Origin: a virus | Strand: one strand, 5' to 3' | Virus record (IMG/VR): IMGVR_UViG_3300001533_002311 | Span: 1-41,383 of that record | DNA: 41,383 bases | Shown: in pieces, positions 2,743 to 41,103 of the stretch | Position numbering within the stretch: position 1 is the stretch's first letter | How the letters are laid out: each line of letters begins with the position of its first letter | Notes under the pieces: generated by a model | The model's database searches: none | What the model was told of the DNA's origin: nothing | What the model saw: only the letters and a program-made list of their open reading frames with translations | Translations under genes and position numbers: made by a program

Positions 2743-3165
2743 ATGGTTAGAATATTTAAGGTTGATATTGAACAAGATAGACGAAAAACTATCGGGGTTT
2801 CGTTGTATTATATTTTGTCAACTTGTGTTGATGGTGAGACAAATATGCTCAAAATAAATGGCAGACCAATGAACACAATGGATATATGTGCATATGCTAA
2901 TTATACAAGAAAGGAATTGTCAAAGGCAATCAGAACATTGTACTATAAAGGGATTATATTGAACGTCAGAACTGGTGGCAAAGATTTGTTCTTTATAAAT
3001 CCAGAATTTGTTAGAGACGAAAATAAGACCGTATTGGATTTCCCGTTTTTGAATGAACTATTTGACGGTGAGAGTAATATGGATGTAAAAGACCTTGTGT
3101 ATTTTAGGAAAGGTCATCGCAAAATAAGCATAGATATAGGTAGTGTTCTACCAGAGGTAAAATAA
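2743..3165 (+). CDS. RepL-like winged-helix DNA-binding protein
   Basis: This 140-aa protein carries a winged helix-turn-helix in the middle: residues near 45-65 (MDICAYANYTRKELSKAI) form the helix pair, followed by a GIILNVRTGG wing and the phrase FFINPEFV. The helix plus 'NPE' pattern is like the RepL family of Firmicutes plasmid replication proteins and like phage wHTH regulators. It has an AAAGGA ribosome site about 12 nt before the ATG. It overlaps the next gene by one base (TAATG), so it is the first gene of the deazaguanine operon. It may initiate replication at the upstream AT-rich region or control the operon; the sequence does not decide between these. Confidence 0.6.
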   Translation: MVRIFKVDIEQDRRKTIGVSLYYILSTCVDGETNMLKINGRPMNTMDICAYANYTRKELSKAIRTLYYKGIILNVRTGGKDLFFINPEFVRDENKTVLDFPFLNELFDGESNMDVKDLVYFRKGHRKISIDIGSVLPEVK

Positions 3166-3518
3166 TGTATACGATAAGCAAACGATTCCAATTCTCAGCA
3201 TCACATTTGTTAAATAATTTAGAAGAAGGACATCCTTGTTCGAGAAATCACGGGCATAATTACGAATTGACGATATACCTTGCCAGTAAGGAACTTGACA
3301 AACAGGGGTTTGTTCTTGATTATCAGAAACTTGATTTTGTAAAACAATATGTAAATAAGTTTCTTGACCATCGCTGTCTTAACGATGTCTTTGATTTCAA
3401 CCCGACAGTTGAGAATATGACAAAGAAGATATATGACTTATTTAAGCCAAAATGTCCACAGTTATTGGCAGTTGCGTTAAGTGAAACACCTAATACGGAG
3501 TGCATATATGAACCTTAA
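3165..3518 (+). CDS. queD: 6-carboxy-5,6,7,8-tetrahydropterin synthase (QueD)
   Basis: This 117-aa protein converts 7,8-dihydroneopterin triphosphate to 6-carboxytetrahydropterin, the second step towards preQ0. The zinc ligands are His14 (SASH), His29 and His31 (NHGHNY), and the catalytic Cys25 and the LDHR motif at 67-70 are in place. The C-terminus ends with the family-typical SETPN and E-IYE. The length matches bacterial QueD (about 120 aa). Its ATG overlaps the stop of the preceding gene and its end overlaps the queE start by 11 bp, so translation is probably coupled. Confidence 0.93.
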   Translation: MYTISKRFQFSASHLLNNLEEGHPCSRNHGHNYELTIYLASKELDKQGFVLDYQKLDFVKQYVNKFLDHRCLNDVFDFNPTVENMTKKIYDLFKPKCPQLLAVALSETPNTECIYEP

Positions 3519-4089
3519 TATAGTAGAAATATTTTCGTCTATTCAGGGCGAAGGATTACATACTGGTCAGCTTGTAACATTTGTTAGACTTGCCGGGTGC
3601 AATATGAACTGTCCGTTTTGTGACACAGATTGGCAAAGCAATCAAAAACAAATGAGTCTTAGTGCAGTTTTGAGGGAGGTTAGGAAATATCCGTCAAATG
3701 TTATTGTTTGGACTGGTGGAGAGCCATTGCTCCAGTTAAAGGAAGAATGTTTATTTTTCGGGTATAAACACTATTTAGAAACAAACGGCTCATTGCCGCC
3801 GATTAAGGGATTAGATTATATTACAATAAGTCCAAAAGTACCCACAGATATGTTAAACAAAAACTTTCGGGGGTTTTGGAATATAGGAGAAATAAGGTAT
3901 CCGATAAAAGTAGGCGATGTTGTTCCGAATATAGATGAACTACCTATTGCACGGAATTACTATTTAAGTCCAATTTTTGACGGAGATAAGTTGATAATAC
4001 AGAATGTAAAATATTGTATGGAACTAATAGAAAGGAGACCAAGGTGGAGACTGTCAGTACAAACACACAAGCTATTGAATCTTACCTAA
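3508..4089 (+). CDS. queE: 7-carboxy-7-deazaguanine synthase (QueE), radical SAM enzyme
   Basis: This 193-aa enzyme makes 7-carboxy-7-deazaguanine from 6-carboxytetrahydropterin by a radical S-adenosylmethionine ring contraction. The [4Fe-4S] ligands are Cys31, Cys35 and Cys38 in [12 protein letters not shown]. The SIQGEG start motif is at 11-16 and the SAM-binding GGEP at 70-73. I chose the ATG at 3508, which starts directly at the conserved N-terminus; an in-frame GTG 27 bp upstream lies deep inside queD. The end overlaps folE by 46 bp. Confidence 0.93.
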
Positions 4090-4613
4090 AAGACATATTG
4101 GGTTATATAGGTGATGACCCAGATAGAGAGGGTTTAGTTGAAACGCCGCACAGGATTGTAAAATCTTGGGAAAAGTTATTTGGTGGGTATGAACAAAATC
4201 CTTACGATGTAATTAAAACATTTGAAGACGGTGCTTGCAATGAAATGGTGATATTGAAAGACATAGAGTTTTACTCTACGTGTGAGCATCATTTCTTGCC
4301 ATTTTTTGGCAAAGTACACATTGCGTATATCCCGAATGGGAAAGTAGTCGGTGTTTCAAAACTTGCAAGATTAGTTGAGGTATATGCAAGACGATTACAA
4401 ATACAGGAAAGACTTGTAGGACAAATAGCAGATTGCATTTCTGAGGTTCTTAATCCAGATGGTGTCATGGTTGTTTGTCAGGCACAGCATTTTTGTATGA
4501 TAAGCAGGGGAGTTGAAAAACAAAACTCTATTATGGTAACAAGTGCAGTGCGTGGCGTTTTCAAGGATATTGCAAAGACAAGAGAAGAATTTATGTCTCT
4601 TATATCCATGTGA
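4044..4613 (+). CDS. folE: GTP cyclohydrolase I (FolE)
   Basis: This 189-aa enzyme converts GTP to 7,8-dihydroneopterin triphosphate and so feeds QueD. The zinc ligands Cys80, His83 and Cys151 are at the family spacing (CEHH; later QHFCM). The substrate-binding [17 protein letters not shown] stretch at 103-119 is intact. The start is a GTG at 4044, placed 7 nt after the ribosome site AAAGGAG; the upstream TTG at 4014 has no such site. Phage-borne FolE raises the flux into the pathway above the host level. The stop overlaps the next start (ATGTGAG). Confidence 0.93.
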
Positions 4614-4927
4614 GTTGTATCGTGAAATTTGTTATTGATATAGATGGAGTTATAGCAGAAGAGAGAAGTAATCATCTTGAATATAGTAAGTGTGTACCTA
4701 AAAAGGATGTAATTGATTGTGTAAATAAACTATTCAATTCTGGCAATTATATCATCTTGTTTACATCGAGATTTGAGGTTGATAAACAAGTAACAATGAC
4801 ATGGCTTGAAAAAAACAACGTATTATACAATGAACTAATTCTTGGAAAACCAAGGGCAGATTTTTATATAGATGATAGAGCAATGCGTCCAAATGAATTT
4901 AAGGAATTGTGTGAGCAAAATGTATAA
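4610..4927 (+). CDS. HAD-superfamily phosphatase-like protein
   Basis: This 105-aa protein has the HAD motif I DIDGV near residues 10-14 (nucleophile Asp and the second Asp), motif II Ser/Thr-like FTSR near 48-51, and a C-terminal [12 protein letters not shown] that fits motifs III and IV (Lys and the Asp pair). The length fits small capless HAD hydrolases. The start is GTG at 4610, overlapping the folE stop; GTG at 4622 is an alternative that gives the usual 'xKFVIDIDG' N-terminus. It sits inside the deazaguanine operon with overlaps on both sides, so it may act on a pathway intermediate or nucleotide, but its substrate is unknown. Confidence 0.7.
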
Positions 4928-5579
4928 ATCTGTTTTGTTAATGTCTGGCGGTATAGATAGTTTTATAGGCTACTATCTGCTCGGTTATCCGCAACCTGTT
5001 TATTTTAACCTAAATTCCAAGTATTCTAAGGTTGAAATTAATACGGTGCATAAAATATCTGATAAAGTGATTATAGATAATGACTTGAATTTTCTTGGGA
5101 GACTTGAAGATAAAGATGCTCATATTCCATATAGAAACTTGTTTTTTATGTTGCTCGGTGTTACCAAATATTCTGATACTGTGATAATATGTGGGGTTAG
5201 AGATGACAATGTGTCTGATAAAGACAGTAAGATTTTTAGGAAGATGTCTGACTCTTTATCATATGTAGCAAAAAGAAAAATTGAGATAGTTTCTCCGTTT
5301 TGGAATTTTACAAAGGCAGACATTTGTGCCAAGTTTGCAAACAAATTTGACAAAAGACTCTTATTGCAAACATACTCTTGTTATTCTGGCAAAGAGATTG
5401 AATGTGGAGCTTGTCCTGCTTGTTTTAGAAAAAGAGTTGCTCTTTTTAGCATAAATATTTTTATGCCATTCAATAATGACTTGTTGCTTTCTAAATATGA
5501 AGCCAATATGAGTAACTATGACGACCAAAGACAACTTAATATGAAAAAATATATCAAGTATATAAGGGACAGTAAATGA
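4920..5579 (+). CDS. queC: 7-cyano-7-deazaguanine (preQ0) synthase (QueC)
   Basis: This 219-aa ATP-dependent enzyme turns 7-carboxy-7-deazaguanine into the nitrile preQ0. The PP-loop SGGIDS is at residues 9-14. Four zinc-binding cysteines (154, 162, 165, 168) lie in the C-terminal CGACPACFRKR segment, as in QueC. It overlaps the HAD gene by 8 bp and the DpdA-like gene by 4 bp (ATGA). No amidotransferase domain is fused to it and no QueF is seen nearby, so the end product is expected to be preQ0 rather than an amidated or reduced form. Confidence 0.92.
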   Translation: MYKSVLLMSGGIDSFIGYYLLGYPQPVYFNLNSKYSKVEINTVHKISDKVIIDNDLNFLGRLEDKDAHIPYRNLFFMLLGVTKYSDTVIICGVRDDNVSDKDSKIFRKMSDSLSYVAKRKIEIVSPFWNFTKADICAKFANKFDKRLLLQTYSCYSGKEIECGACPACFRKRVALFSINIFMPFNNDLLLSKYEANMSNYDDQRQLNMKKYIKYIRDSK

Positions 5580-6313
5580 GATTGTATTTTGCTGGAGATG
5601 ATGGATATAAAGCAACAAATGAGATATTGTTAAGATATGGCGCAAAGAACCGTCTTGAGAGCTTTTTTTATTTGAGGAAGGGAAACCCAAGTATGCAGTT
5701 TGAAAACTATCTTTTAGATAGCGGGGGATTTACAGCCAGAAAAAGTGGTGTAGAAATAGATATTAGAAATTACATAGATTTTATAAATAAAAACTCAATC
5801 AAGCAGGCATTCAATCTGGATACAAATGACTTAAATGAAAGTCGAAAAAATCAAAGAATCTTAATGCAAAATACAGATGCGGAGATTGTTCCAATTTATC
5901 ACGCGACAGAGCGGGAACACGAAAAAACAAGAGATATGTTAATGCAATATATAGAGGAGTATAACTATATCGGCATATCTGGTCCGAAGAGAAAGAGCGT
6001 TAGGAAGGAATATAAGCTTGCATACTTTGATTTTGTTTTTTCTCATTTTGATTTATCCGTAAGGTTTCACGGACTTGGAATAACTACTCCTGATTTTCTA
6101 AGAAGGTATTCTTGGTATTCTGTGGATTCTACAACTTGGATTTCAATAGGGAAATATGGAAGAGCTTCAAATCTAAAGATAAAACAAATGCAAAAGTACC
6201 TTGCGAAAGGGAGAAGAAGAAATCACAATATAGAGAGGGATTTGCCTTATTGGATTGGGTTAGAAAAAACAATGACAAAATACTGGAAAAATCGCGATAT
6301 AGATTATTCATAA
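5576..6313 (+). CDS. dpdA: DpdA-like DNA 7-deazaguanine transglycosylase
   Basis: This 245-aa protein belongs to the tRNA-guanine transglycosylase superfamily. It has LLDSGGFTA (Asp48), the same motif as the proton-acceptor region of TGT enzymes, FNLDTND near 79-85, and VDSTTW with Asp184, the likely nucleophile region. It is shorter than cellular TGT and lacks the zinc-binding tail, like the short phage DpdA group that exchanges guanine in DNA for preQ0 or its derivatives. It follows queC with a 4-bp overlap, which ties it to the synthesis genes. Known function of the family: base exchange in DNA; that this one uses preQ0 is inference from its neighbours. Confidence 0.82.
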   Translation: MRLYFAGDDGYKATNEILLRYGAKNRLESFFYLRKGNPSMQFENYLLDSGGFTARKSGVEIDIRNYIDFINKNSIKQAFNLDTNDLNESRKNQRILMQNTDAEIVPIYHATEREHEKTRDMLMQYIEEYNYIGISGPKRKSVRKEYKLAYFDFVFSHFDLSVRFHGLGITTPDFLRRYSWYSVDSTTWISIGKYGRASNLKIKQMQKYLAKGRRRNHNIERDLPYWIGLEKTMTKYWKNRDIDYS

Positions 6314-17926: not shown

Positions 17927-20900
17927 ATGCCTGTAGAAAAAAAGAAAATATCTTTGGAAGTTGAACTTAAAGGCATACAGAAAACCATTTCTGAGATAAA
18001 GAAAGTTGAACAATCTAAGCCTGCCATAGATTCTTTAAATAAATTTGTAGCCAGTCTATCTGCTGCGATTGAGGTGCTTGGTACTCTTGAAAAGGAAGGT
18101 CTTAGCATACAAGCGAACAAACTTTACAGCAGTTTGGCTAAGATTGTTGCCCAGGTAAAATCACTAAATTTAGAACAAGTGCCAGATGTTATTTTTCCAG
18201 ATGTAGTTTTGCCGCCAGATTTAGACAAACTTATAGAAGAGTATAGACAAAAAGCAATCAAACTAAAAGCTGCTCAAATGGGTATAACTGAAATGAAGCC
18301 GGGTTATGCCCAGGAAATTGAAAAAAAGCTCACGCCCAAAGAACTCGCTGGCATACAGGCACAAGCACAAGCTACTTATAATGAACAGGCTACTGCATAT
18401 AGTAATTATGTCACGAAAAAGGAAGAAGCCTCAAAACGCGAAGAACAAATCGATAGTGAAAGAATACAGAAAGCTCTTGAATTTCGTGATAAAATAAAAC
18501 CATTAGCTAAAGAAGTAAGAGGTTTAACAACAGAAATAGTGACCAGGGCTCCCAAAAAAGATGAGTCATGGCTTAAGGAAACTCGCAAATTAGAACAAGA
18601 TGAGCAAAAAATAATAGACGATAGGTTGGCGCAAAAACAAAGAAGCGATAGTGAATGGATAGAATCTGAGCGGAGAAAAAACGAACAACTATTAAAGGAA
18701 AGGAAAGATTACTACACACGTGAAGCTGAATTAAAAAGGCAAGAATCTGTCACACTTGAGCCTGTTGATTATAAGAAAAAGTGGGAAACACCAGAACAAA
18801 TAAGTCATATAGATAAAGATTTTAGAGTAACCCAAAAGGAAGAAATTGCAGACGCTATACGGCTTAGAGATGAACAAGGACTTCTTGTAAAACAATTACA
18901 AGAGAAATTATCTGTTGCACAATCTATTTCTGAAGTTGATGATATTGGAAAGAAACTTGTAGGAGCAAAAGAAGAACTTGCTATAAGACAGAAAGAAGTT
19001 GATAATCAAAAGCATGGTCTTAAGGTAGTAACTGAAGGTAATAAGCTTCGTGAGGAAAGACTAAAAAACACTATTCTACAAGCAAAAGAAGAAGTAAAAG
19101 TTAGAGTTGCTCAAAATGAAATATCAAGTATTACGGCAAAAGATATTGGTGAGGCAAATGCAAAAGTAGCCGTTCAAAGCAAAAACCTTGATATAATTAC
19201 GCAAGAAGAATTAAAATATGGACAACAGTTAATAGATTTGCAGAAATTAAAGGCTCAGCTTGATAGTAATGTTAAACTTGCAGAAAAGGGTTTAAATAAT
19301 GCAAAAACAGAAAATGAGGTAATAAAGAAAAAATACAAACTATCTGGTGCTTTATTGGCTCAAGCAGAAAACAGACATAAAATTGATGTTACCACTCAAA
19401 CTCTAAAAAGTATAGATGTTGAAAAAAAGAAGGTTATTGAATCTCAAAAATATGAAGCAATCCTAAAAAATATAAATTTTATTTATAAACAAATGGCGGG
19501 GCATGTAGGGCGCATAAGATTTTGTGATGCAGAACTTGATATAAAAAGGGTAAACAATGAATTAAAAAAACTTCCTGTGAAAATGCGCGAAGTAAAAGCA
19601 AAAGAGTTGGCAGAGCATTTTGATAAAGCAGGCATAAGGGTTCATAATATCGGTGGTGGCCTACAATTGGCGGCTCGTGGGGGTAAAAAACTTGAAACAT
19701 CTATAGGCAAGGGTGTGCGGGAAATGTTTTCGATGGAAAAACTTATTTCCCGTATGACCTTCGTTATTACAGCTAAACTCTCTTATCAAATGTTTGATAC
19801 GCTAACGCGAGCACTTAAAAATGCTATAATGTTAAACGTAGAGTTTCGCAATGAAATACAAAAGACTTTTGCCTTGATAGTTGGTGAGACTGAAGCTACA
19901 AAGGCTCATTTAACGGAACAAGTTGCCCTTCTTGCGAAAGAATACAGGTTGGCTCTTAACGATGTATCGCAGGCATTTTATCAAATTATATCCGCTCAGA
20001 TTGGCGTTGCTGAGGCAACACATGTATTAGAGGCAGCACTTAAGCTTGCGGTTGGCGGTTTTTCATCTGCGAATGATGCAGCACTTGCTCTTGTTCAAAT
20101 ACTTAATGCTTATGAATTAGGTGCAGAAAGAGCAGAACATATTGCTGACGTAATGTTTCAAACAACTAAACTTGGTATTCTTACTACTCAGCAATATGCG
20201 GATGAAGTTTCAAAAGTTGCGGCAACAGCTTCTATGTTTGGGATTTCTATTGAGGAAATATCGGCAGCAATTTCTGTAATGACAAGAAATGGCGTTAGAG
20301 TTGACCAGGCATTTACTTCATTAAATCAAATGTTAATGAAGATTGCAAAACCTACTGAAAAAGCCAAAAGAATGTTTGAAGCTTATGGCGTTGAAATAAA
20401 CATGAATACTGTCCGTACTCAGGGATTGGTAAATACTCTCCTACAATTAGAAGGTATTCTTGAATCCGAAGAAGCAATGACTACATTCATGTCAACCAGA
20501 ACTGGTGCAAAGGCTATGTTCTCATTGGCTCAAAATGCAAAAGAATATGCCAGTGATTTAACGAATATGTATAATTCTGTCGGTGCGGCGTCAGAGGCGG
20601 CTGAGTCGAGACTCAACACTACCGCTTCTTTAATGGTGAGCATAAAATCAGAAGCAATAGAAATAGGCCGGCAAGTTGGACACGAAATAGAACCATTCCT
20701 GCGTACTGGTTTATCGCTTCTTATGCCCATTCTTAGTGCTTTTCGCAAACATGCCCCATATATAGTTTCTTCGCTCAAAATGATAGTTATCCAGCTAACC
20801 GTCATATTTGCGAAGAAATTTCTTGTGAGTATTATCGTATTTCTCAAAAGCATGCAAGCCTATATATTGGTAATGAAATCGGAGGTATTGGATTTATTCA

Positions 20901-23900
20901 ATAAGGCTACAATAAAAGCAAAAGGATTTGGGGCAACGCTTGCTCAGGCGACAGGCGGGTTAACTATAATGGTTGCCTTATTAATGCAAGTTATAGGATG
21001 GATAGTAACAGCTACCAAAAAACAAAAGATATTAAATACAGATATAAAACTGGGTGTTAAGGGAATTGAAACCGAATTAAAGGGTGTCTCAAAAGAAATA
21101 TCTATATTAGACAGTAAAATAGGTGCATTACATGGGATGAGGGAGCTTATAGAGCAAACAATAGAATTTGGCAACACTATAGGCGATAATATAAAAAAAC
21201 AGGAGCAATTTGATAAAACTTATGACGCAATAATAGAATCTATTGGCAATATGCTTGGTGTTGAATATAACTTTACGGATAAATTTATTGGGTTAACTCA
21301 AATAAGAATTGACGCACAAAATGAGGAATTACGGATAAGTAGGCAAAGGTTAGAACTTAAGGGCAAAGAATTAGCTTTAGAAAATAGTATTGCAATATCA
21401 CAATGGCGTAGAGGTTATCAACAAGATATTGATAGTCAAAAAATAGGAACAGACTTTCAAAGATTACGCTTTCGTATGTTTTATACTTTAGATGATGTGC
21501 TTGAGGGTTGGGCCATTGACCTTAACAATGTATTATCGAATAAATTATATAAATTAGGAAAAGAGGCTCCGAAATATCCAGAAGAACCCAGCGAAGAAAC
21601 ATTGGCAGAGTATCACAGTAAATTAGCAACTTGGAGTAACAGGCTAAAAAGGGTATATGATGAACTTGAGAAACTCTCTGATACTGAATCTATGGAAGTA
21701 TCAATAGTAGAAGCGGCAAAAGCATATAATGATGAAGCGGGAGCACTTGCAAAAACACTTTTAGATTTTAGTACCTTATCAGAATCCGATAAAAAGATGA
21801 TGCAAAAGTCGAAAGATGAATGGGACAATTATATTGCAAATGCAACATCTTTTATACTTGACGGGTTAAATTATGTACAGATTTTGATGAACTCAAATCT
21901 TGAGACAATAAACGTTGACCTTGAAACCATGCTATCTCAAACCATGAAAGACCTTGGGGGGAGGGGAACAAGTAAGCCTGTTAATAAAACCGCGGAAATA
22001 ATAGATAAATGGCTTGGTCTTTTAAAGTCTGTGGATGTATCTGTTGAGACCAAATATATCGATAGAATAACAGACCTTGAGCGAGCCATTGATGATATAA
22101 AAAAGAGTGATAACCAACTTCTAAATGAAGCCGTTATTGAACCGTTAAAGATGTTGGGCGGCGAGTTTGAGGAACTTGGACAACTCAGCGATTTAGTAAA
22201 GAAAAAACCGCTTGATGCTGAAGCCTCTGTCGCCAATTTCCGAGAAATGGTTAATGTCTATAATAACTTCTTTGCTAGAATGAATGAGGCCAATGAAAAC
22301 GGTGAGAGATATATTGAACAACTTGCGGCTGAACTTTTAAAAAGTGGTGACTCGCGCATAAAGTCACTTGGTGAGGGTCTTGTCAATGTTGCTGATAGGT
22401 TGGAAATAGAACTGATAAAAGAGATTGAAGCAAGCTTTGTAAAGAATATAAAATACGCAATCAGAAACGCAAAGGATAATGCTGAGAAACATAACATCTA
22501 TGAGACAATGACCAAGGCAATGGGTTATACATTTGATGAGGCAGGAAATATAGTAATATCTTGGTTTGACGAACTCAAAGATAAAAGTATAAAAGCTTTG
22601 GAAGATATTGTCAAAGATGACAAAACGCCTGAAACTGTAAAAGACTATATTGGACTTTTAATAGGGGAACAGCAACGTGAGATTGCGGATTTAATACGAG
22701 CAATGTTTGGCAAGTATGGCGGTATGCTCGTTGATTTAGAAAAGAATATGGATGATTTTGCAGATGTATTTGATTATGTATCTAAAACGCTTGAGCCACT
22801 TGGTTTGGATTTAACTATATTTCAAGACATACTCAAAGCCGTTCTCAAGAATGACACTGAAGCATTGAAAGATATTTTATTTGATTTAGGTGAGATTGAA
22901 TTTCCACCAGAGTATCTTGAAAAATTGCAGGCACTTATAAAATTGCTTGGTCAATTGCGACCAGAAAGATATAAAGATTGGACCGCTGAAGCACAAAGAC
23001 AATATGACTATAAGATGCGCGGCAAAGGCCCAGGCGAAGTTCCGGTTGAAGAAATGGAAGAAGGCGAGCTTGGTGATTTTTTAAAGAAAAAGTTTGGGCT
23101 TGATGAAGCTCTCACGGTTGCTGAAGCCTTTCAAATGGCAGAAAGCAAAGTACTTGAGTTATCTTCTCAGGTTTGGGGTCAGTATTGGGAAAACAAGATA
23201 CAAGCGGCAGAAGACGCAAAGGAGCGTCTATTAGCTATTGAAGATGCACGTCAGGAAATGATGCTTGCAAACGAAAACCTTTCTGCTGAACAGAGGACAC
23301 AATTACAAGAAAGATTTGAGGAAAGAAAGAAACAAATAACTCTCAAGGCAGACAAAGAAATTGCGCGTGAGAGGAAGAAGCAGGCAAAAGCCGAACTAAC
23401 GATAGACTTTGCCAAATCAATAGCCACCATTTGGGCGCGAGAATTGGCGAGCAAGGGAGGGCTTGGAGTTATTACTGCTTCCCTCTTGACAGCTTTGCTC
23501 ACTGGTATTTATGGTGCGCAACTGAATATTATAGACAAGCAAAAGTTTGCAGGTGGCGGCTATACTGGAAGTGGATATGGTTTTACTGATTCTACTGGTT
23601 ACAAGCCGGCTGGCATTGTTCACGAGGGTGAGCTTGTCATAGATAAAAAGACTCTGGATATGAACTTTTCCCCGCTTATATCTATGTATGACTTCCTTAA
23701 AAAGGGCAATGACTTTGGTTCATTCATGCGGTCATATGTAACCGGGCTTGGCGGTGTTAATAGTCCTGCGTTGAACAAAAGCGGGATGTTCGCTTCTGGT
23801 GGCTATGCAATTACTAATCGTGTTCCAAATGAGCCGTTTAATGTCTTTGTTGACTTTAAGGGGATGAGAACGCTTGACGATGTTGATATGAGTGTAATAG

Positions 23901-23941
23901 TTGAGAAAGGTAATAGGAAAAGGAGAGTAATACGTGGATAG
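17927..23941 (+). CDS. Tail tape measure protein
   Basis: This 2004-aa protein sets tail length. Residues 1-600 are mostly coiled coil (KKEEASKREEQIDSER and many similar). Residues about 603-865 match the TP901-type tape measure core (MEKLISRMTFV, QAFYQIISAQIG, FGISIEEISAAISVMTRNG, STRTGAKAMFSLAQ). Two hydrophobic stretches follow (about 935-985 and 1009-1030). Residues about 1015-1665 have a divergent inverted relative at the left end of the window. The C-terminus has the usual hydrophobic helix (ITASLLTALLTGIYG, near 1848) and GIVHEGELVID. At about 1.5 angstrom per residue the tail would be near 300 nm. The end overlaps the next gene by 8 bp. Confidence 0.92.
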   Translation: MPVEKKKISLEVELKGIQKTISEIKKVEQSKPAIDSLNKFVASLSAAIEVLGTLEKEGLSIQANKLYSSLAKIVAQVKSLNLEQVPDVIFPDVVLPPDLDKLIEEYRQKAIKLKAAQMGITEMKPGYAQEIEKKLTPKELAGIQAQAQATYNEQATAYSNYVTKKEEASKREEQIDSERIQKALEFRDKIKPLAKEVRGLTTEIVTRAPKKDESWLKETRKLEQDEQKIIDDRLAQKQRSDSEWIESERRKNEQLLKERKDYYTREAELKRQESVTLEPVDYKKKWETPEQISHIDKDFRVTQKEEIADAIRLRDEQGLLVKQLQEKLSVAQSISEVDDIGKKLVGAKEELAIRQKEVDNQKHGLKVVTEGNKLREERLKNTILQAKEEVKVRVAQNEISSITAKDIGEANAKVAVQSKNLDIITQEELKYGQQLIDLQKLKAQLDSNVKLAEKGLNNAKTENEVIKKKYKLSGALLAQAENRHKIDVTTQTLKSIDVEKKKVIESQKYEAILKNINFIYKQMAGHVGRIRFCDAELDIKRVNNELKKLPVKMREVKAKELAEHFDKAGIRVHNIGGGLQLAARGGKKLETSIGKGVREMFSMEKLISRMTFVITAKLSYQMFDTLTRALKNAIMLNVEFRNEIQKTFALIVGETEATKAHLTEQVALLAKEYRLALNDVSQAFYQIISAQIGVAEATHVLEAALKLAVGGFSSANDAALALVQILNAYELGAERAEHIADVMFQTTKLGILTTQQYADEVSKVAATASMFGISIEEISAAISVMTRNGVRVDQAFTSLNQMLMKIAKPTEKAKRMFEAYGVEINMNTVRTQGLVNTLLQLEGILESEEAMTTFMSTRTGAKAMFSLAQNAKEYASDLTNMYNSVGAASEAAESRLNTTASLMVSIKSEAIEIGRQVGHEIEPFLRTGLSLLMPILSAFRKHAPYIVSSLKMIVIQLTVIFAKKFLVSIIVFLKSMQAYILVMKSEVLDLFNKATIKAKGFGATLAQATGGLTIMVALLMQVIGWIVTATKKQKILNTDIKLGVKGIETELKGVSKEISILDSKIGALHGMRELIEQTIEFGNTIGDNIKKQEQFDKTYDAIIESIGNMLGVEYNFTDKFIGLTQIRIDAQNEELRISRQRLELKGKELALENSIAISQWRRGYQQDIDSQKIGTDFQRLRFRMFYTLDDVLEGWAIDLNNVLSNKLYKLGKEAPKYPEEPSEETLAEYHSKLATWSNRLKRVYDELEKLSDTESMEVSIVEAAKAYNDEAGALAKTLLDFSTLSESDKKMMQKSKDEWDNYIANATSFILDGLNYVQILMNSNLETINVDLETMLSQTMKDLGGRGTSKPVNKTAEIIDKWLGLLKSVDVSVETKYIDRITDLERAIDDIKKSDNQLLNEAVIEPLKMLGGEFEELGQLSDLVKKKPLDAEASVANFREMVNVYNNFFARMNEANENGERYIEQLAAELLKSGDSRIKSLGEGLVNVADRLEIELIKEIEASFVKNIKYAIRNAKDNAEKHNIYETMTKAMGYTFDEAGNIVISWFDELKDKSIKALEDIVKDDKTPETVKDYIGLLIGEQQREIADLIRAMFGKYGGMLVDLEKNMDDFADVFDYVSKTLEPLGLDLTIFQDILKAVLKNDTEALKDILFDLGEIEFPPEYLEKLQALIKLLGQLRPERYKDWTAEAQRQYDYKMRGKGPGEVPVEEMEEGELGDFLKKKFGLDEALTVAEAFQMAESKVLELSSQVWGQYWENKIQAAEDAKERLLAIEDARQEMMLANENLSAEQRTQLQERFEERKKQITLKADKEIARERKKQAKAELTIDFAKSIATIWARELASKGGLGVITASLLTALLTGIYGAQLNIIDKQKFAGGGYTGSGYGFTDSTGYKPAGIVHEGELVIDKKTLDMNFSPLISMYDFLKKGNDFGSFMRSYVTGLGGVNSPALNKSGMFASGGYAITNRVPNEPFNVFVDFKGMRTLDDVDMSVIVEKGNRKRRVIRG

Positions 23942-36045: not shown

Positions 36046-36211
36046 TTAGTGTTTGCGTTTTTTCATGTGCTTAAACATTTCAATTTGTCTTAACCGTTTC
36101 TGCGCCTGCTTCTTTGTTTTATAAGTCCCAAGCTTGCGACCACTACGGCCAATATCACTCTATAGTTGTTTGGTGTCAAGCTGAAACAGTATGCTGTGAG
36201 TATGTTATCAT
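36046..36211 (-). pseudogene. Small gene split by an R2 repeat (43 aa when rejoined)
   Basis: On the minus strand ATG at 36211 follows GAGAGG and reads MITYSQHT, then runs into R2 copy D (36154-36187), which brings a stop codon. The frame continues after the repeat as IGRSGRKLGTYKTKKQAQKR and ends KHMKKRKH at 36046. Without the 34-bp unit the two halves join in frame (132 bp, 43 aa). The second part resembles small phage proteins with the 'GrxLGTYkTkxqAqkRLrQiE' pattern. This is direct evidence that the repeat is an insertion in a gene. Confidence 0.7.
36154..36187 (+). repeat. R2 repeat, copy D (solitary, CRISPR-repeat-like)
   Basis: This 34-bp unit is read on the plus strand from ATCACTCTATAG to the end CAAGCTGAAAC. 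It is identical to copy A (39491-39524), and is alone here with no spacer. The 3' GAAAC end is typical of CRISPR repeats. On the minus strand it contains TTGACA with GATATT 17 bp further, so it also looks like a promoter. Confidence 0.8.
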
Positions 36212-36318
36212 TTTTTAACCTCTCATAAGTTGGTTGTTATTTCCGAGAAGGGACAAGCCGAAGCCTGCCCCTGTCTCGGTTCTCATGGGGGAAATCTATC
36301 TACTATAAGAGTGTCATA

Positions 36319-36534
36319 CTAAAACTCCTCCTCGCCTGAGATAAATCTCCAGGTAATCATTCCGAAGACATATGCGAAACCGGCAGACAATAGCGTCCCT
36401 ATTAACGCATATATGTCAGGACGGAGTGACATGACCCCGACGGAAAGTACGGCGCATAATACACCTAATCCCATCAGGAGTTCTTCAAAGATAATCAGGA
36501 TGAATGCGATGATACCGAATTTTACTTTTTTCAT
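36319..36534 (-). CDS. Small membrane protein, 71 aa
   Basis: This protein starts MKKVKFGIIAFILIIFEELL and has about three hydrophobic segments (5-20, 22-37, 43-60). A strong AGGGAG site precedes the ATG at 36534. The acidic end is SGEEEF. It may be a superinfection or membrane protein, but no family is recognised. Confidence 0.65.
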   Translation of the reverse strand: MKKVKFGIIAFILIIFEELLMGLGVLCAVLSVGVMSLRPDIYALIGTLLSAGFAYVFGMITWRFISGEEEF

Positions 36535-36610
36535 TTTTTTCTCCCTTCCCTCTGGAGCAGGGGACAGGAAAAATAGCCAGAGCTATGACCTATCCCCCAC
36601 TCAGGGGTTA

Positions 36611-37051
36611 TTAGTATTTAAATTTCCAGTCCTCTCCCTCCACAGCATTAACGCTGGAGCAGATAGACTGCCATAATCCTGCTCTGAAACTATCTTTTTG
36701 AGTGCATCTCATCAGTAAGCAAACTTCCTGCCACTCATCAGACAACTTATCCATAGGACTGAGAACGGTCTCGATTTTCATATTGAAATCTGTCCCTTTC
36801 CTATTCTCAACCACATTTATCTTGACAGAGACTGCTTCCCCAATCAAGATAACTTCTATGCCTTCTTCGGTCTTCATAACATAGGCAGTTCTCTCCTCAA
36901 AGAGGAGTTCTGCCTCATAAATCAGCTCTCTCAATTTCTGGCGAGCATAGAACTTTGCGCAGGAGTCTCCATGCCCTTTTGTAACCAAACTCAGTTCGAG
37001 TTTTTTTCTTGTTATGTATTTGATTTCATCTGAGGTCATAATGTGACTCAT
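36611..37051 (-). CDS. Accessory protein, unknown, 146 aa
   Basis: This soluble alpha-beta protein starts MSHIMTSDEIKYITRKKLEL and has a strand segment (GIEVILIGEAVSVKINVVE) and a helical C-terminus with three Cys. GGGAGG precedes the ATG at 37051. It is a middle gene of the minus-strand group. Family not recognised. Confidence 0.6.
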   Translation of the reverse strand: MSHIMTSDEIKYITRKKLELSLVTKGHGDSCAKFYARQKLRELIYEAELLFEERTAYVMKTEEGIEVILIGEAVSVKINVVENRKGTDFNMKIETVLSPMDKLSDEWQEVCLLMRCTQKDSFRAGLWQSICSSVNAVEGEDWKFKY

Positions 37052-37159
37052 TTTGAGCCTCCCTGTTTTTTTTTGTGCAAGGCTTGCGCCTGCACATAAG
37101 CTTAAAATATAAAGAGTACAGTTTCAATCCTTGATGTATTGGATATATGGATAAATACC
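37026..37159 (-). pseudogene. Possible tiny gene split by R1 copy 1 (31 aa when rejoined)
   Basis: Just after the resolvase stop there is TAAGGAGA on the minus strand, a strong ribosome site with no gene behind it. If the 38-bp R1 unit (37121-37158) is removed, a GTG forms across the junction 9 nt after this site and opens a frame of 31 codons (MYSLYFKLMCRRKPC and on) that ends inside the start of the next gene. The product is short and overlaps another gene, so it is only weakly supported, but it matches the pattern at the other repeat sites. Confidence 0.3.
37121..37158 (-). repeat. R1 repeat, copy 1 (solitary, CRISPR-repeat-like)
   Basis: This 38-bp unit begins GTATTTATCCATATATCC on the minus strand and ends AAGGATTGAAAC. 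The ATTGAAAC end is the classic 8-nt handle of many CRISPR repeats. It is identical to copies at 38770-38807 and 38843-38880. It lies alone between the genes at 37051 and 37173. Confidence 0.85.
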
Positions 37160-37172
37160 CGAAAGAGTCTCC

Positions 37173-37691
37173 TTATTTTATGACCAAATGATTTTCCAAA
37201 CAATAGATTGCAATTAGAAATGCTTCTGCCCTGTCGTGTTTTAATACCCTTGTGTCCTTTCGTCTGTATTTGAAACACTTGGCATCTTCAGGCGACAAAT
37301 AACAGGCTTTCTCAACCGACAATAACTTTTTCTTTTTATAGGTTATGTTGCCATTAGTTATGTTAAAGTAGTTTTTCCAGACAGGCGGCGATACACGCAG
37401 GAATTTAAATCCCATTCCCACAACTGCACCATAAATTGTTCCGACTGCCTTGCCGTATTCAAAACCACCATAGACAGTCTTTACTTCGTCTTTACTACCA
37501 TGCGGATGCGGATTCTCTGACATAATCAGGTCAAGCTCAGAATTAAACTGGCTTAAAAAGTTTACAATACCAGTAATATCTATGTCATTGCCGATTTTTT
37601 CTATATCGTGAAATCCTATTGTCTTGCGTGTCATTGCGTCAATTGCCCATAAGCAACCTGACTTTCCAGGGTCTATGCCTATAATGTTCAT
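37173..37691 (-). CDS. RuvC-like Holliday junction resolvase
   Basis: This 172-aa protein has an RNase H-like fold: IGIDPGKSG at the N-terminus (Asp7), then an acidic residue in LIMSENPHPHG (Glu60 region) and the C-terminal HDRAEAFLIA with the last Asp. These are the catalytic acids of phage RuvC-type nucleases that resolve branched DNA before packaging. It overlaps the ribbon-helix-helix gene at one base. Confidence 0.85.
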   Translation of the reverse strand: MNIIGIDPGKSGCLWAIDAMTRKTIGFHDIEKIGNDIDITGIVNFLSQFNSELDLIMSENPHPHGSKDEVKTVYGGFEYGKAVGTIYGAVVGMGFKFLRVSPPVWKNYFNITNGNITYKKKKLLSVEKACYLSPEDAKCFKYRRKDTRVLKHDRAEAFLIAIYCLENHLVIK

Positions 37692-37888
37692 TATTCACCA
37701 ATCTTTTTGGTTGGACGATAAGTTTTTAATGATTGGTCAATAAGATTACAAATACAAGCACTCATTGATAACCCTGTTGCCTGCATTAAAAATTGTAGGT
37801 GACCACGATGTCTTGGGAGCAGATAAATTGTTGTCGGTATCTTCTCTGCTCCACTAATATACTTTCTACGTTTTAATTGTCTTTTCAT
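37691..37888 (-). CDS. Ribbon-helix-helix-like DNA-binding protein
   Basis: In this 65-aa protein IPTTIYLLPRH forms the strand and HLQFLMQATGLSMSACICNL the two helices, matching the RHH pattern (strand, helix, 'G.S.S' turn, helix). The ATG at 37888 lies 8 nt after AAGGAG; ATG at 37906 is before that site and less likely. It may repress its own group; a TTGACA is present upstream on the same strand. Confidence 0.65.
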   Translation of the reverse strand: MKRQLKRRKYISGAEKIPTTIYLLPRHRGHLQFLMQATGLSMSACICNLIDQSLKTYRPTKKIGE

Positions 37889-37917
37889 ATCTAAATTCTC
37901 CTTCATCGGCAGAATTT

Positions 37918-37939
37918 TAGACTTTACACTTTATGTCAA
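37918..37939 (-). promoter_or_regulatory. Possible promoter for the minus-strand group
   Basis: On the minus strand TTGACA (37939-37934) is followed by TAAAAT at 14 bp and AATTCT at 17 bp. It sits in a 120-bp gap upstream of the ribbon-helix-helix and resolvase genes. The -35 box is consensus but the -10 spacing is poor. Confidence 0.35.
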
Positions 37940-38008
37940 GCATTATTATGCAATCATAATAAAATCACACTTATTAATGTAAAACAAAGACAGTAGATAT
38001 AATTATGT

Positions 38009-38392
38009 TTAGTGGTCAGTCCGAGATGCTAATTTTTTCATACGACTGAATTTAACATGCTGTTTCACACAAGTTTTACACCAAGAATTTATAATACCGT
38101 CTCTGACGTAGAAATCGTTTTTAACTGATTTTAATTTACCACATCTCTTGCATGGTTTATATAATTCGCCGTTGATTAACCGACATCCTGAATGAATACG
38201 TTTATGCGTCCGACGAGTAACAAGAACAAGATTCTCGAGACGGTTATCCCTTTTGTTAAAATTTATGTGATGTATCTCATGGCCTTTTGGGATTCGTCCA
38301 TTAGCTTGTTCCCAAACAACACGATGTTCAAATTCGCCATTGCTTAATTTCACATATCCCTGGTCAGTCTGTAATTTCTTTCTCAACCTCAT
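38009..38392 (-). CDS. HNH endonuclease
   Basis: This 127-aa protein has an HNH core EHRVVWEQANGRIPKGHEIH followed by HINFNKRDNRLENLVLV and THKRIHSG, the HNH_3 pattern with paired His and the central Asn. A C-terminal zinc-binding part has CKRCG and CKTC. Such proteins are often mobile homing nucleases or take part in packaging next to terminases; here it lies in the accessory part. It overlaps the preceding gene by 29 bp. Confidence 0.85.
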   Translation of the reverse strand: MRLRKKLQTDQGYVKLSNGEFEHRVVWEQANGRIPKGHEIHHINFNKRDNRLENLVLVTRRTHKRIHSGCRLINGELYKPCKRCGKLKSVKNDFYVRDGIINSWCKTCVKQHVKFSRMKKLASRTDH

Positions 38393-38633
38393 CTTCCTCT
38401 GGTGGCGTGATAATTGGGGTTGTTCCAGTCACGCTTTTTTTGTTATCTTTCTTGAGTCTTTGCATAAGTTTTACGCCCACATATTTCCTGTTATGTTTGT
38501 CCTGAGTTTTTGTATAAAGATTAGCGAATGTCTTTGTTAAATAGGCAAACAAAAGAGCAGGCGCGGCCAGCACAAGACAAATAATAAAACATATCGTAAA
38601 GATAATGGCTATCAAAGCATAAATAAAACGCAT
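38364..38633 (-). CDS. Small membrane protein with charged tail
   Basis: This 89-aa protein has residues 3-35 as one or two hydrophobic helices (IYALIAIIFTICFIICLVLA), then a Lys-rich stretch and an acidic tail (TPPEEDEVEKEITD). The ATG at 38633 lies behind AAGGAG; the GTG at 38642 is too close to that site. Its start follows directly after the interrupted zinc-ribbon gene. Function unknown. Confidence 0.65.
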   Translation of the reverse strand: MRFIYALIAIIFTICFIICLVLAAPALLFAYLTKTFANLYTKTQDKHNRKYVGVKLMQRLKKDNKKSVTGTTPIITPPEEDEVEKEITD

Positions 38634-38734
38634 GATAAACACTCCTTATTGGTTTCCATCGTTTGAGAAGAAACCGTCATTGGCGTCTTCGCTTGAATAT
38701 TGATTAGATTTGGGTAGGCTTGCCCCGCAATAGG

Positions 38735-38880
38735 GGCAGATTACATGGTCAAGGTCGCAGTCACGCTTCGTTTCAATCCTTGATGTATTGGATATATGGA
38801 TAAATACGGCAGATTACATGGTCAAGGTCGCAGTCACGCTTCGTTTCAATCCTTGATGTATTGGATATATGGATAAATAC
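38735..38880. repeat. Perfect 73-bp tandem duplication
   Basis: 38735-38807 and 38808-38880 are identical. Each copy consists of 35 bp of gene sequence (GGCAGATTACATGG to CACGCTTC) and one R1 repeat. Thus the 'spacer' between the two R1 copies is an exact copy of the gene sequence to their left. Confidence 0.95.
38770..38880 (-). CRISPR. R1 mini-array: two 38-bp repeats, one 35-bp spacer
   Basis: R1 copies at 38770-38807 and 38843-38880 are identical to each other and to the copy at 37121. The spacer 38808-38842 is 35 bp, a usual CRISPR size, and equals the flanking 38735-38769. The repeat end on the minus strand is GGATTGAAAC. No cas gene or leader is seen. It may be a viral mini-array, a tandem duplication of an inserted repeat, or a trace of a host array that targets this phage. 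Confidence 0.6.
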
Positions 38881-38944
38881 AATTGTGCAGGAATAAGTCC
38901 CGTTGGAATTTCTCTGCAAATACGGGCAAGCATCAAGACCTTAT

Positions 38945-39005
38945 ATCACTCTATAGTTGTTGGTGTCAAGCTGAAACTGTCAAGCTGAAACTGTCAAGCT
39001 GAAAC
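38945..39005 (+). repeat. R2 repeat, copy C, with tripled 14-bp end
   Basis: 38945-38977 is R2 with one T missing (33 bp). Its last 14 bases (TGTCAAGCTGAAAC) then occur twice more, at 38978-38991 and 38992-39005, in perfect tandem. Small tandem growth of one end like this suggests slippage or repeated end-joining at the repeat. Confidence 0.85.
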
Positions 39006-39025
39006 ATAAGCGCACCCTATCAATC

Positions 39026-39042
39026 TGTCAATTTTGCGTCAA
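39026..39042 (-). promoter_or_regulatory. Possible promoter boxes on the minus strand
   Basis: On the minus strand ATACTTGACG (39042-39037 is TTGACG) is followed 17 bp later by TAGGGT, with a second TTGACA at 39031-39026. The stretch resembles the ATACTTGACA box before the gene at 2743. It could drive the interrupted zinc-ribbon gene group. Confidence 0.3.
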
Positions 39043-39050
39043 GTATTTTT

Positions 39051-39425
39051 TTAACCGAGATTTTGAATAACAATCTCAGTTGCCATGTCCAATATAGACA
39101 GCATCTGATATTGGTTGATTTTAAATTCAAAGACGCTATATTTATCTTCCACTACCGCGCGATATATCCACTTGTCATCCTCTCTATAGGTATGCGATAT
39201 TGAGATTGTTACAAATAATGGCGCATTATTAAATACGGGATTCTGTTGCTGAATAATCGAACATAGTTCCCTTGTCTTTATTGAAATTAAAATCAACGAC
39301 TCTTTAAAGACTTCATTGACAAGCCTGCCAACGGAATTAACCGCAATCTCACGCAATCTTTTAAAGTTCTCTTTACAATAGAACCCATCGCCTGTTTCTT
39401 CAGTTGCTTGTAGTTGGTTTATCAT
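39051..39425 (-). CDS. Accessory protein, unknown, 124 aa
   Basis: This protein starts MINQLQATEETGDGFYCKEN and has a helical first half and a beta-rich second half (APLFVTISISHTYREDD, then YSVFEFKINQYQ). A very strong AAGGAGGAG site lies before the ATG at 39425. Family not recognised. The gene upstream of it is the one split by R2 copies A and B. Confidence 0.65.
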   Translation of the reverse strand: MINQLQATEETGDGFYCKENFKRLREIAVNSVGRLVNEVFKESLILISIKTRELCSIIQQQNPVFNNAPLFVTISISHTYREDDKWIYRAVVEDKYSVFEFKINQYQMLSILDMATEIVIQNLG

Positions 39426-39446
39426 CAGTTCTCCTCCTTATAAGTA

Positions 39447-39595
39447 TTAGGTTTTCATCGCCAATAGCGGTGAAATTACTTGTAGCCTTAATCACTCTAT
39501 AGTTGTTTGGTGTCAAGCTGAAACTTAGACATATTGCGGTTGTAAGCATTTGTTCATATCACTCTATAATTGTTTGGTGTCAAGCTGAAATGCAT
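39447..39595 (-). pseudogene. Tiny gene split by two R2 repeats (26 aa when rejoined)
   Basis: If R2 copies B (39558-39591) and A (39491-39524) are removed, the minus strand reads ATG right after the previous gene's stop (GGATGAAAA, a ribosome-site-like stretch), 26 codons (MHEQMLTTAICLIRLQVISP and on), and TAA just before the next gene's AAGGAGG. The fit between neighbours is good, but so short a product is not proof. Confidence 0.4.
39491..39591 (+). CRISPR. R2 mini-array: two 34-bp repeats, one 33-bp spacer
   Basis: Copy A (39491-39524) is identical to copy D at 36154. Copy B (39558-39591) differs at two bases (A for G at position 12, T for C at the last base), like the worn last repeat of a CRISPR array. 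The spacer 39525-39557 (TTAGACATATTGCG and on) is 33 bp and appears to be original phage gene sequence. No cas genes are nearby. Confidence 0.55.
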
Positions 39596-39598
39596 TTT

Positions 39599-40021
39599 TC
39601 ATCCTATCCGTCCCTTCACATACATTACAAGAATTCTACAGTAAGCAAGTTTATCTATGATACTATCGCAATCCTCCAATGATTCTGCTTCAAGATGGAC
39701 TCTTATCGAATTCTTTATATGTTTTTCATCATATTCCAGAATGTGGTAAAGGTCACTTATAATGCTGTTAAGATTTGCGTGAACCTCGGCACAACCAAGT
39801 TCTAGCGTTGATTCTTCCATGCCCAATATGGTTACGATTTCCTTTGACGGGTTTTTCCATACTTCAATCTGTTTACGCACAAAGCCATAATCAGACGATT
39901 TAACTTCTAAATCCAATCCCTTTTCTATCCTGCGTTTCATATCTCGCAGAAAATCATTCAATAACTCAACGAATTTTTCATCGGATAGGTTTTTTACAAG
40001 GACTTCTTGTTTGCCAAACAT
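39599..40021 (-). CDS. Accessory protein, unknown, helical, 140 aa
   Basis: This protein starts MFGKQEVLVKNLSDEKFVEL and is mostly helical and charged, with DEKFVELLNDFLRDMKRRIE and a C-terminal helix (CDSIIDKLAYCRILVMY). The ATG at 40021 lies behind AAGGAG; the upstream ATG at 40036 overlaps that site. Family not recognised. Confidence 0.62.
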   Translation of the reverse strand: MFGKQEVLVKNLSDEKFVELLNDFLRDMKRRIEKGLDLEVKSSDYGFVRKQIEVWKNPSKEIVTILGMEESTLELGCAEVHANLNSIISDLYHILEYDEKHIKNSIRVHLEAESLEDCDSIIDKLAYCRILVMYVKGRIG

Positions 40022-40074
40022 CTTATTCTCCTTCATGTTTTTCTAATGTCTCACCTGAGACGTTTATTGTTCTG

Positions 40075-40554
40075 TCATGCTTCCAGATTGGCTTCATAGG
40101 TTATCATCTCATGCAGGGTTTTTAAATCAATGTTCATCTTGCCACCAAGTATGTCAGCGGGGTCTAACTTCAGGCATACTTTTATCTTGCCGGTTATTGG
40201 CGATATTTCTATTGAGATAATCCACCACTGCTGTCCCATTAGTTCAATGTCTCGCGTGTGCATTAACCTGATGAGTAGTTCTTTTTTGTCTATCACTTTC
40301 CTTTCCTCCTTTGGCGGCACGTAGTTTAGATTTGGCTCGCCAGGCTGACAGGAAGGCGCAGGCAATATAAGATATTCCACGCCAATCGCATTGTCATAAT
40401 CATCGTCAATCATTATCCTGTCGCTTTTCATAACCTTGATTACTGGCGGGAAATTGTTATCAAACAAATACCTTACCACTATGAATACTGGCTTAGATAG
40501 TTTAGTTATTGTCTGGGTATCAAGGTCGAAGGTTGTCCATTGTCCGACTTTCAT
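40075..40554 (-). CDS. Accessory protein, unknown, 159 aa
   Basis: This alpha-beta protein starts MKVGQWTTFDLDTQTITKLS. It has strands (PVFIVVRYLF; QQWWIISIEISPITGKIKV), an acidic KSDRIMIDDDYDNA and a PSCQPGEPN loop. The DNA of that loop carries a 20-bp sequence that occurs again at 41038-41057. ATG at 40554 follows GGAGAG. Family not recognised. Confidence 0.62.
   Translation of the reverse strand: MKVGQWTTFDLDTQTITKLSKPVFIVVRYLFDNNFPPVIKVMKSDRIMIDDDYDNAIGVEYLILPAPSCQPGEPNLNYVPPKEERKVIDKKELLIRLMHTRDIELMGQQWWIISIEISPITGKIKVCLKLDPADILGGKMNIDLKTLHEMITYEANLEA
40340..40359 (+). repeat. 20-bp direct repeat, copy 1
   Basis: CCAGGCTGACAGGAAGGCGC at 40340-40359 occurs identically at 41038-41057. 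Here it lies inside the gene at 40075-40554; the other copy lies in a gap. The region between holds the reading frames at 40566-40998, so it may be a recombination footprint. Confidence 0.85.
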
Positions 40555-40565
40555 TTGTTCTCTCC

Positions 40566-40667
40566 TTATTCGTTGTAGTTCAGACACTCATTGCATCTGT
40601 ATGTATTCCCATTATCAGGGTCTTTCGTGTGCATTGTCGGCTTTTTACAAGACCAACAATAAATCAT
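40566..40667 (-). CDS. Tiny zinc-ribbon protein, 33 aa
   Basis: The sequence MIYCWSCKKPTMHTK ends with YRCNECLNYNE, giving CWSC and CNEC at the spacing of a zinc ribbon. It lies directly upstream of the gene at 40554 with an 11-bp gap. GGCGG stands before the ATG at 40667. Very short phage zinc ribbons of this kind are common; the role is unknown. Confidence 0.6.
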   Translation of the reverse strand: MIYCWSCKKPTMHTKDPDNGNTYRCNECLNYNE

Positions 40668-40713: not shown

Positions 40714-40998
40714 GTGAACGACTGGAATTGGGGCGGGAAACGCTCATTTTGTGGTCTCAGACACCTTATCTTGGACAGACAGGGTCTGATATCGCAGGGG
40801 ATACTAAAGTTCGGCTCAGCCCACAATTTCGGCTATGCGTTGGATATGATTTTCTTTGACTATACTGCCGAAGAAGTTCGCTGGCATATTATCACCCATG
40901 CTGACCGCTATCCCGAAGTCAAGGGGATAGAGACGGACATATCATGGTTACACATAGACGCAAGGAATGTGGAAGCATTGATGATATTCAAGCCTTAG
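40714..40998 (+). pseudogene. M15-type peptidase-like protein, N-terminus missing
   Basis: This 94-aa frame has NDWNWGGKRSFCGLR, then FGSAHNFGYALDM and SWLHIDARN. The SxH..G.A.D and WxHxD motifs are those of M15-type zinc peptidases, which cut peptidoglycan cross-links; the ligands would be the His of SAH, the Asp of ALD and the His of LHID. Relatives usually have 30-40 more residues before NDW. Here the frame is open only to 40663 and runs into the opposite-strand zinc-ribbon gene. It is the only plus-strand coding stretch in this region. It is probably a truncated remnant; GTG at 40714 is a possible start. Confidence 0.55.
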
Positions 40999-41037
40999 AC
41001 CCATACATCACCACTCCCCTCCACCCCACCAGCGTCC

Positions 41038-41057
41038 CCAGGCTGACAGGAAGGCGC
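41038..41057 (+). repeat. 20-bp direct repeat, copy 2
   Basis: This is the second copy of the sequence at 40340-40359. It is followed directly by a small hairpin (GCGGG, six-base loop, CCCGC at about 41056-41071) and a pyrimidine-rich stretch, a weak terminator candidate for the plus-strand peptidase-like frame. Confidence 0.8.
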
Positions 41058-41103
41058 GGGTTTTATCCCGCCCCTCTTCTTTTAGTTGAACTATTCTATA
41101 ATA

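Follow-up and report, generated by a model that had tools for sequence, protein, structure and literature searches.

CRISPR-like repeats of two unrelated families, solitary and in one-spacer arrays, in a small-gene region of a tailed phage

How do short repeats that end like CRISPR repeats come to lie among the small genes of a phage, and what could they do there? The locus belongs to a tailed phage record of IMG/VR (IMGVR_UViG_3300001533_002311) of about 41 kb. The window, the whole 41,383 nucleotides of this record, encodes a terminase, a portal protein, a tape measure protein and a 7-deazaguanine pathway. The last comprises PTPS/QueD-like, QueE-like, GTP cyclohydrolase, QueC-like and queuine tRNA-ribosyltransferase-like genes at 3165-6313 (+), and 7-deazaguanine DNA modification by the phage is probable from this set. 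We analyzed two repeat families, R1 and R2 (Table 1). The answer that we prefer, held tentatively, is that they are phage-borne CRISPR-derived units, solitary repeats together with two one-spacer mini-arrays from two unrelated families, placed without cas genes in a small-gene region.

Table 1. Repeats, spacers, interrupted frames and a promoter-like site of the locus (positions in the window)
Feature	Position	Strand	Remark
Small ORF MITYSQHT/IGRSGRKLGTYKTKKQAQKRLRQIEMFKHMKKRKH with Shine-Dalgarno	36046..36211	-	intact only with the 34-nt R2 removed
R2, solitary copy	36154..36187	+	identical to 39491-39524; splits small minus-strand frame
R1, solitary copy, GTATTTATCC...GGATTGAAAC	37121..37158	-	Rfam CRISPR-DR7, 24.8 bits, below gathering threshold
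Zinc-ribbon-like ORF MLARICREIPTGLIPAQL/KRDCDLDHVICPYCGASLPKSNQ...	38646..38933	-	intact only with R1-A-R1 (38770-38880) removed
Phage 35-nt sequence equal to spacer A, directly downstream of R1	38735..38769	-	inside zinc-ribbon-like frame
R1, downstream repeat of two-repeat array	38770..38807	-	CRISPR-DR7, 24.8 bits, E=0.0043 (161-bp stretch)
Spacer A, 35 nt between both R1 copies	38808..38842	-	exact copy of 38735-38769
R1, upstream repeat of two-repeat array	38843..38880	-	CRISPR-DR7, 28.5 bits, E=0.00045 (161-bp stretch)
R2, altered copy	38945..39005	+	1-nt deletion; last 14 nt (TGTCAAGCTGAAAC) three times in tandem
Promoter-like site TTGACA-17-TATGTT, 10 of 12	39003..39031	-	among the best-scoring of the region
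Small ORF MHEQMLTTAICLIRLQVISPLLAMKT across both R2 copies	39447..39595	-	open only without those copies
R2, first of two-repeat array	39491..39524	+	identical to 36154-36187
Spacer of R2 pair, 33 nt	39525..39557	+	core without exact match in viral contigs
R2, second of array, degenerate	39558..39591	+	one internal change, ends GAAAT

R1 is 38 nt long and its three copies are identical at 38 of 38 positions. It reads GTATTTATCCATATATCCAATACATCAAGGATTGAAAC on the minus strand, so that its TGAAAC-type terminus, GGATTGAAAC, lies on the strand of the surrounding genes. Matches to the 21-nt core numbered 3, against 0.00 expected in shuffles. The final 8 nt of the repeat, ATTGAAAC, correspond to the usual class 1 CRISPR handle, and a stem AUCC/GGAU is followed by UGAAAC. 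Among Rfam models, CRISPR-DR7 (RF01320) ranked first for the R1 stretch with 28.5 bits and E=4.5e-4 over 161 bp, under the curated gathering threshold of 37; DR9 and DR10 gave weaker matches. The alignment covers model positions 12-37, including the stem and the UGAAAC tail, whereas the 5′ third of R1 falls outside the model fit. R1 is probably a true class 1 CRISPR repeat by ancestry, because it combines the ATTGAAAC end with the covariance match and with spacer-sized spacing in the pair.

R2 is 34 nt long, reads ATCACTCTATAGTTGTTTGGTGTCAAGCTGAAAC on the plus strand and occurs in four copies. Its CTGAAAC end is opposite to the gene strand; the two families thus lie on opposite strands relative to their TGAAAC ends, and similarity between them is confined to TGAAAC. 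The copy at 38945 has lost one T, and its tandem TGTCAAGCTGAAAC units occupy 38964-39005. The second repeat of the R2 pair is degenerate, as is common for the terminal repeats of CRISPR arrays. With up to 3 mismatches allowed, the 15-nt R2 end was found 8 times, where 1.3 matches were expected. A stem GUUUG/CAAGC, then UGAAAC, is possible, with a folding energy no better than that of shuffles, and Rfam returned no CRISPR match for R2. A search of the rest of the window for anti-repeats or diverged copies gave nothing better than shuffles did. Taken by its sequence, R2 is possibly a CRISPR repeat by ancestry.

The original prediction had placed near-identical copies of both families at these positions. 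This was borne out, with all three R1 copies identical and two R2 copies perfect, one degenerate and one altered. The CRISPR-like 3′ handles that it had read in both families hold for R1, by ATTGAAAC and CRISPR-DR7, and in part for R2, which has the stem-plus-TGAAAC end only; in the repeat-database comparison, likewise, R1 found a counterpart (below gathering) and R2 found none in Rfam.

Both families also form pairs in which near-identical repeats surround a unique sequence of spacer length (R1-35-R1 and R2-33-R2). In the R1 pair, positions 38735-38880 are a perfect tandem of 2 x 73 bp, each unit made of 35 nt of A and one R1, and the gene strand reads B-R1-A-R1-A-X. Sequence A is part of a zinc-ribbon-like coding frame (...KRDCDLDHVICPYCGASL...) and is unique apart from the copy in its own flank. 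The predicted spacer lengths of 33 and 35 bp, and the mixture of single units and two-repeat arrays, were therefore recovered; that the R1 spacer copies the adjoining 35 nt of the phage had been missed. Both edges of the 73-bp duplication coincide with those of R1 as set independently by the solitary copy at 37121; the repeat was thus duplicated whole, together with a stretch of spacer length.

We then considered the sites in which the repeats lie. Upon excision of the repeats, a frame with Shine-Dalgarno and ATG ran across the junction at three of the four clusters (36154; 38770-38880; 39491-39591). Random joins in the same region gave such frames in 8.6% of trials, for which three of four clusters correspond to about 0.002 (binomial), a figure to be read with a criterion chosen post hoc and with the 39-63% success of random right flanks when left flanks were fixed. 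When R2 is cut out at 38945, TTGACA and a TATA-type hexamer come to lie 17 nt apart (by eye). The ORF at 36046..36211 showed weak family matches in its C-terminal half, and scans of viral contigs with the zinc-ribbon and small-ORF codon patterns returned no match. A strong hairpin, ccgagacaggggcaggcttcggcttgtcccttctcgg, lies at 36240-36280, just upstream of the same R2-interrupted ORF (by eye).

The carrier has seven nearest relatives, with terminase identity of 58-68%. R1 and R2 are absent from all seven, the best windows having at least 12 mismatches. Two of the seven, G004 and G005, have in common with the carrier a RuvC-like gene (37173-37691, about 51-53%), a 71-aa gene (37691-37906, 60% identity) and a weak homologue of the gene at 39599-40036, in the same order. 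The gene of a homing-type HNH_3 endonuclease (38009-38392, -) stands between the 71-aa gene and a small membrane protein gene, which are neighbours in G004. This HNH homing-type endonuclease is the one exception among the accessory proteins tested, which otherwise had no cas or defence match; the repeats are thus carried on a virus record and, by these proteins, are not cas-associated. Further to the right, a frame at 40714-40998 (+) resembles the C-terminal part of an M15-type peptidase (by eye), has no clear start and is alone among minus-strand genes. A 26-nt direct repeat (92%, core CAGGCTGACAGGAAGGCGC) is found at 40337-40362 and 41035-41060, one copy being within the gene at 40075-40587.

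Outside the relatives, exact pattern scans of viral contigs found neither R1 nor R2, nor the core of the R2-pair spacer. The arrays in host genomes by which the original prediction could be checked did not appear: no array with the R1 21-mer was seen in 84,980 GTDB species genomes, and R2 with 3 mismatches was absent from 399 genomes of one phylum, which may not be that of the host. Two R1 21-mer matches in a Lachnospiraceae gene (a transporter permease by eye) were set aside as chance, without array. Blastn of both repeats against plasmids, and of R2 against phages, gave only partial chance matches, and a literature search for the repeat sequences retrieved no CRISPR paper.

Could the repeats have been joined to the phage during library preparation or assembly? 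In such a chimera the assembler would have walked from a phage protospacer into a host CRISPR repeat and back, the host holding spacers from this phage. The identity of the R1 spacer with adjoining phage sequence is what a host spacer against the phage would give, and the absence of R1 and R2 from every relative agrees with it. The contig also bears a second likely artefact, a perfect inverted repeat at its left end (1-91 / 120-210), which is probably an assembly or amplification fold-back; hence the contig is not artefact-free. It is this inverted repeat that gives the frame at 102 its apparent stop. The frame itself (102-2024, -) encodes a 640-aa protein with 22% identity to the tail tape-measure protein of the relative G002. 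This protein also resembles the C-terminal part of the tape measure that the carrier encodes on the other strand (17927-23941), and it is either another piece of tape measure or the product of a mis-join.

A chimera nevertheless makes demands that the locus does not readily satisfy. A k-mer walk would need reads for both junctions of each repeat. If the phage sequence is contiguous, each site would require two host spacers that border exactly on phage sequence; without contiguity, gene order should be scrambled, yet the homologues flanking 38.7-39.6 kb match G004 and G005. Frames restored at three of four clusters also exceed what random joins provide, within the post hoc limits given above. 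The original prediction had named a chimera as the main alternative. It keeps that place, weakened by the gene order of the relatives and by the frames restored on excision, and we regard it as rather unlikely. These same two observations favour true insertions into a contiguous phage over a random assembly jump.

If the insertions are real, they may still be passive. After a cut or gap at a CRISPR target, the phage DNA could have been repaired from the matching spacer of a host array, with the repeats copied in; the repeats would then persist by destroying the PAM side of the target and have no RNA function. R1 borders on the 35-nt target A to the nucleotide, and template slippage between array repeats would yield the exact 73-bp duplication. 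The breaking of small ORFs and of a promoter-like site also fits selection for escape over a designed RNA gene. Against such scars, no host array containing spacer A is known, and the solitary copies share neither a common flank nor a PAM-like motif. We consider this explanation improbable.

Transcription of the repeats was approached by a promoter scan, a promoter no more than about 250 bp upstream being a mark of solitary repeat units; its outcome was weak (27 sites against 19.4 expected, barely above shuffles). The site at 39031-39003 (-) is upstream of the R1 pair and would read across R1-A-R1 in the R1 sense. In the scanned region no convincing promoter was found for R1 at 37121, nor nearby for R2 in the plus direction, its presumed sense, which is opposite to the genes. 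On the gene strand R2 contains TTGACA, a consensus -35 box, and as a promoter its copy at 36154 reaches 10 of 12.

The last observation raises the question of whether at least one of the families has nothing to do with CRISPR and consists of small regulatory or mobile repeats of the phage, R2 being a dispersed promoter. The single orientation of all R2 copies within a minus-strand gene block agrees with this, as does the -35 box. The -10 region, however, is not part of the conserved 34 nt and varies from copy to copy, and for this reason a promoter role of R2 was ranked low. Full-length identity over 34-38 nt is unlike promoters, and R1 has no -35 box and matches CRISPR-DR7. A non-CRISPR origin is thus very improbable.

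For the CRISPR-derived units that we prefer, exact repeats far beyond chance, the 35- and 33-nt spacing and the degenerate end repeat of the R2 pair are arguments in favour. Against them stand the splitting of small frames in place of clean intergenic sites, R2's lack of an Rfam CRISPR match and of a good promoter near it in the plus direction, and the missing link to a host CRISPR, R1 and R2 being in no searched genome, plasmid or other virus. The repeats would probably derive from two CRISPR arrays in one host or more, via recombination or repeat-templated copying; the exact 73-bp duplication would fit repair from an A-containing host array with slippage between repeats. Co-transcribed with the minus-strand early genes, repeat RNAs may divert host Cas proteins as decoys, in a Racr-like manner, and the R1-A-R1 mini-array may give a crRNA against the 35-nt A. 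Both A copies have an R1 handle, and not a PAM or foreign flank, on the spacer 5′ side. By PAM and tag recognition rules the carrier would be spared, because the handle precedes both copies, and sibling phages with uninterrupted A (B-A-X) would be targets. Least probable of all is that R1-A-R1 works as a gene-drive-like mini-CRISPR array with natural homing. On this reading its crRNA would steer host Cas to cut phages with uninterrupted A, and repair from the carrier would copy the insert into the cut site, which would then be immune as the repeat replaces the PAM side; the insert would spread among co-infecting phages like a homing intron, with no nuclease encoded.

Two kinds of known system are closest to phage-borne units of this sort. 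The first are solitary repeat units, whose published members work as RNA anti-CRISPRs (Racr); the best studied one binds Cas6f and Cas7f (PMC10651486). On viral sequences, including those of IMG/VR3, Camara-Wilpert et al. (2023, PMC10651486) described 2,103 such units. They resemble the present locus as lone CRISPR-like repeats without cas in phage accessory regions. It differs from them (PMC10651486) by two unrelated families, with seven copies in one 3.4-kb stretch and partly in mini-arrays, by its position inside small frames, by the lack of a matching host repeat among those searched, and by most copies having no clear promoter.

Spacers of viral mini-arrays, similarly, target sequences of sibling viruses, often near the array, while avoiding self (Medvedeva et al. 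2019, PMC6858448). These arrays share with our locus one or two spacers, the absence of cas and stand-alone repeats in the same virus; their targets lie near the array in siblings, self-targeting is avoided, and the phage cases have no leaders (PMC6858448). The R1 spacer, unlike theirs, is the carrier's own directly adjacent sequence, and sparing could come only from the repeat before the target, not from target mutations. Medvedeva et al. (PMC6858448) called the origin of the proximity between array and target unclear, and the R1 array is its limiting case, the spacer being the very 35 nt that adjoin the repeat. If real, the locus hints at a route by which mini-arrays and solitary repeats enter phages, through repeat copying at a CRISPR target, and at how a phage may bear a spacer against its own sequence unharmed. 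For a phage, two repeat families would imply that it interferes with two CRISPR systems at the same time.
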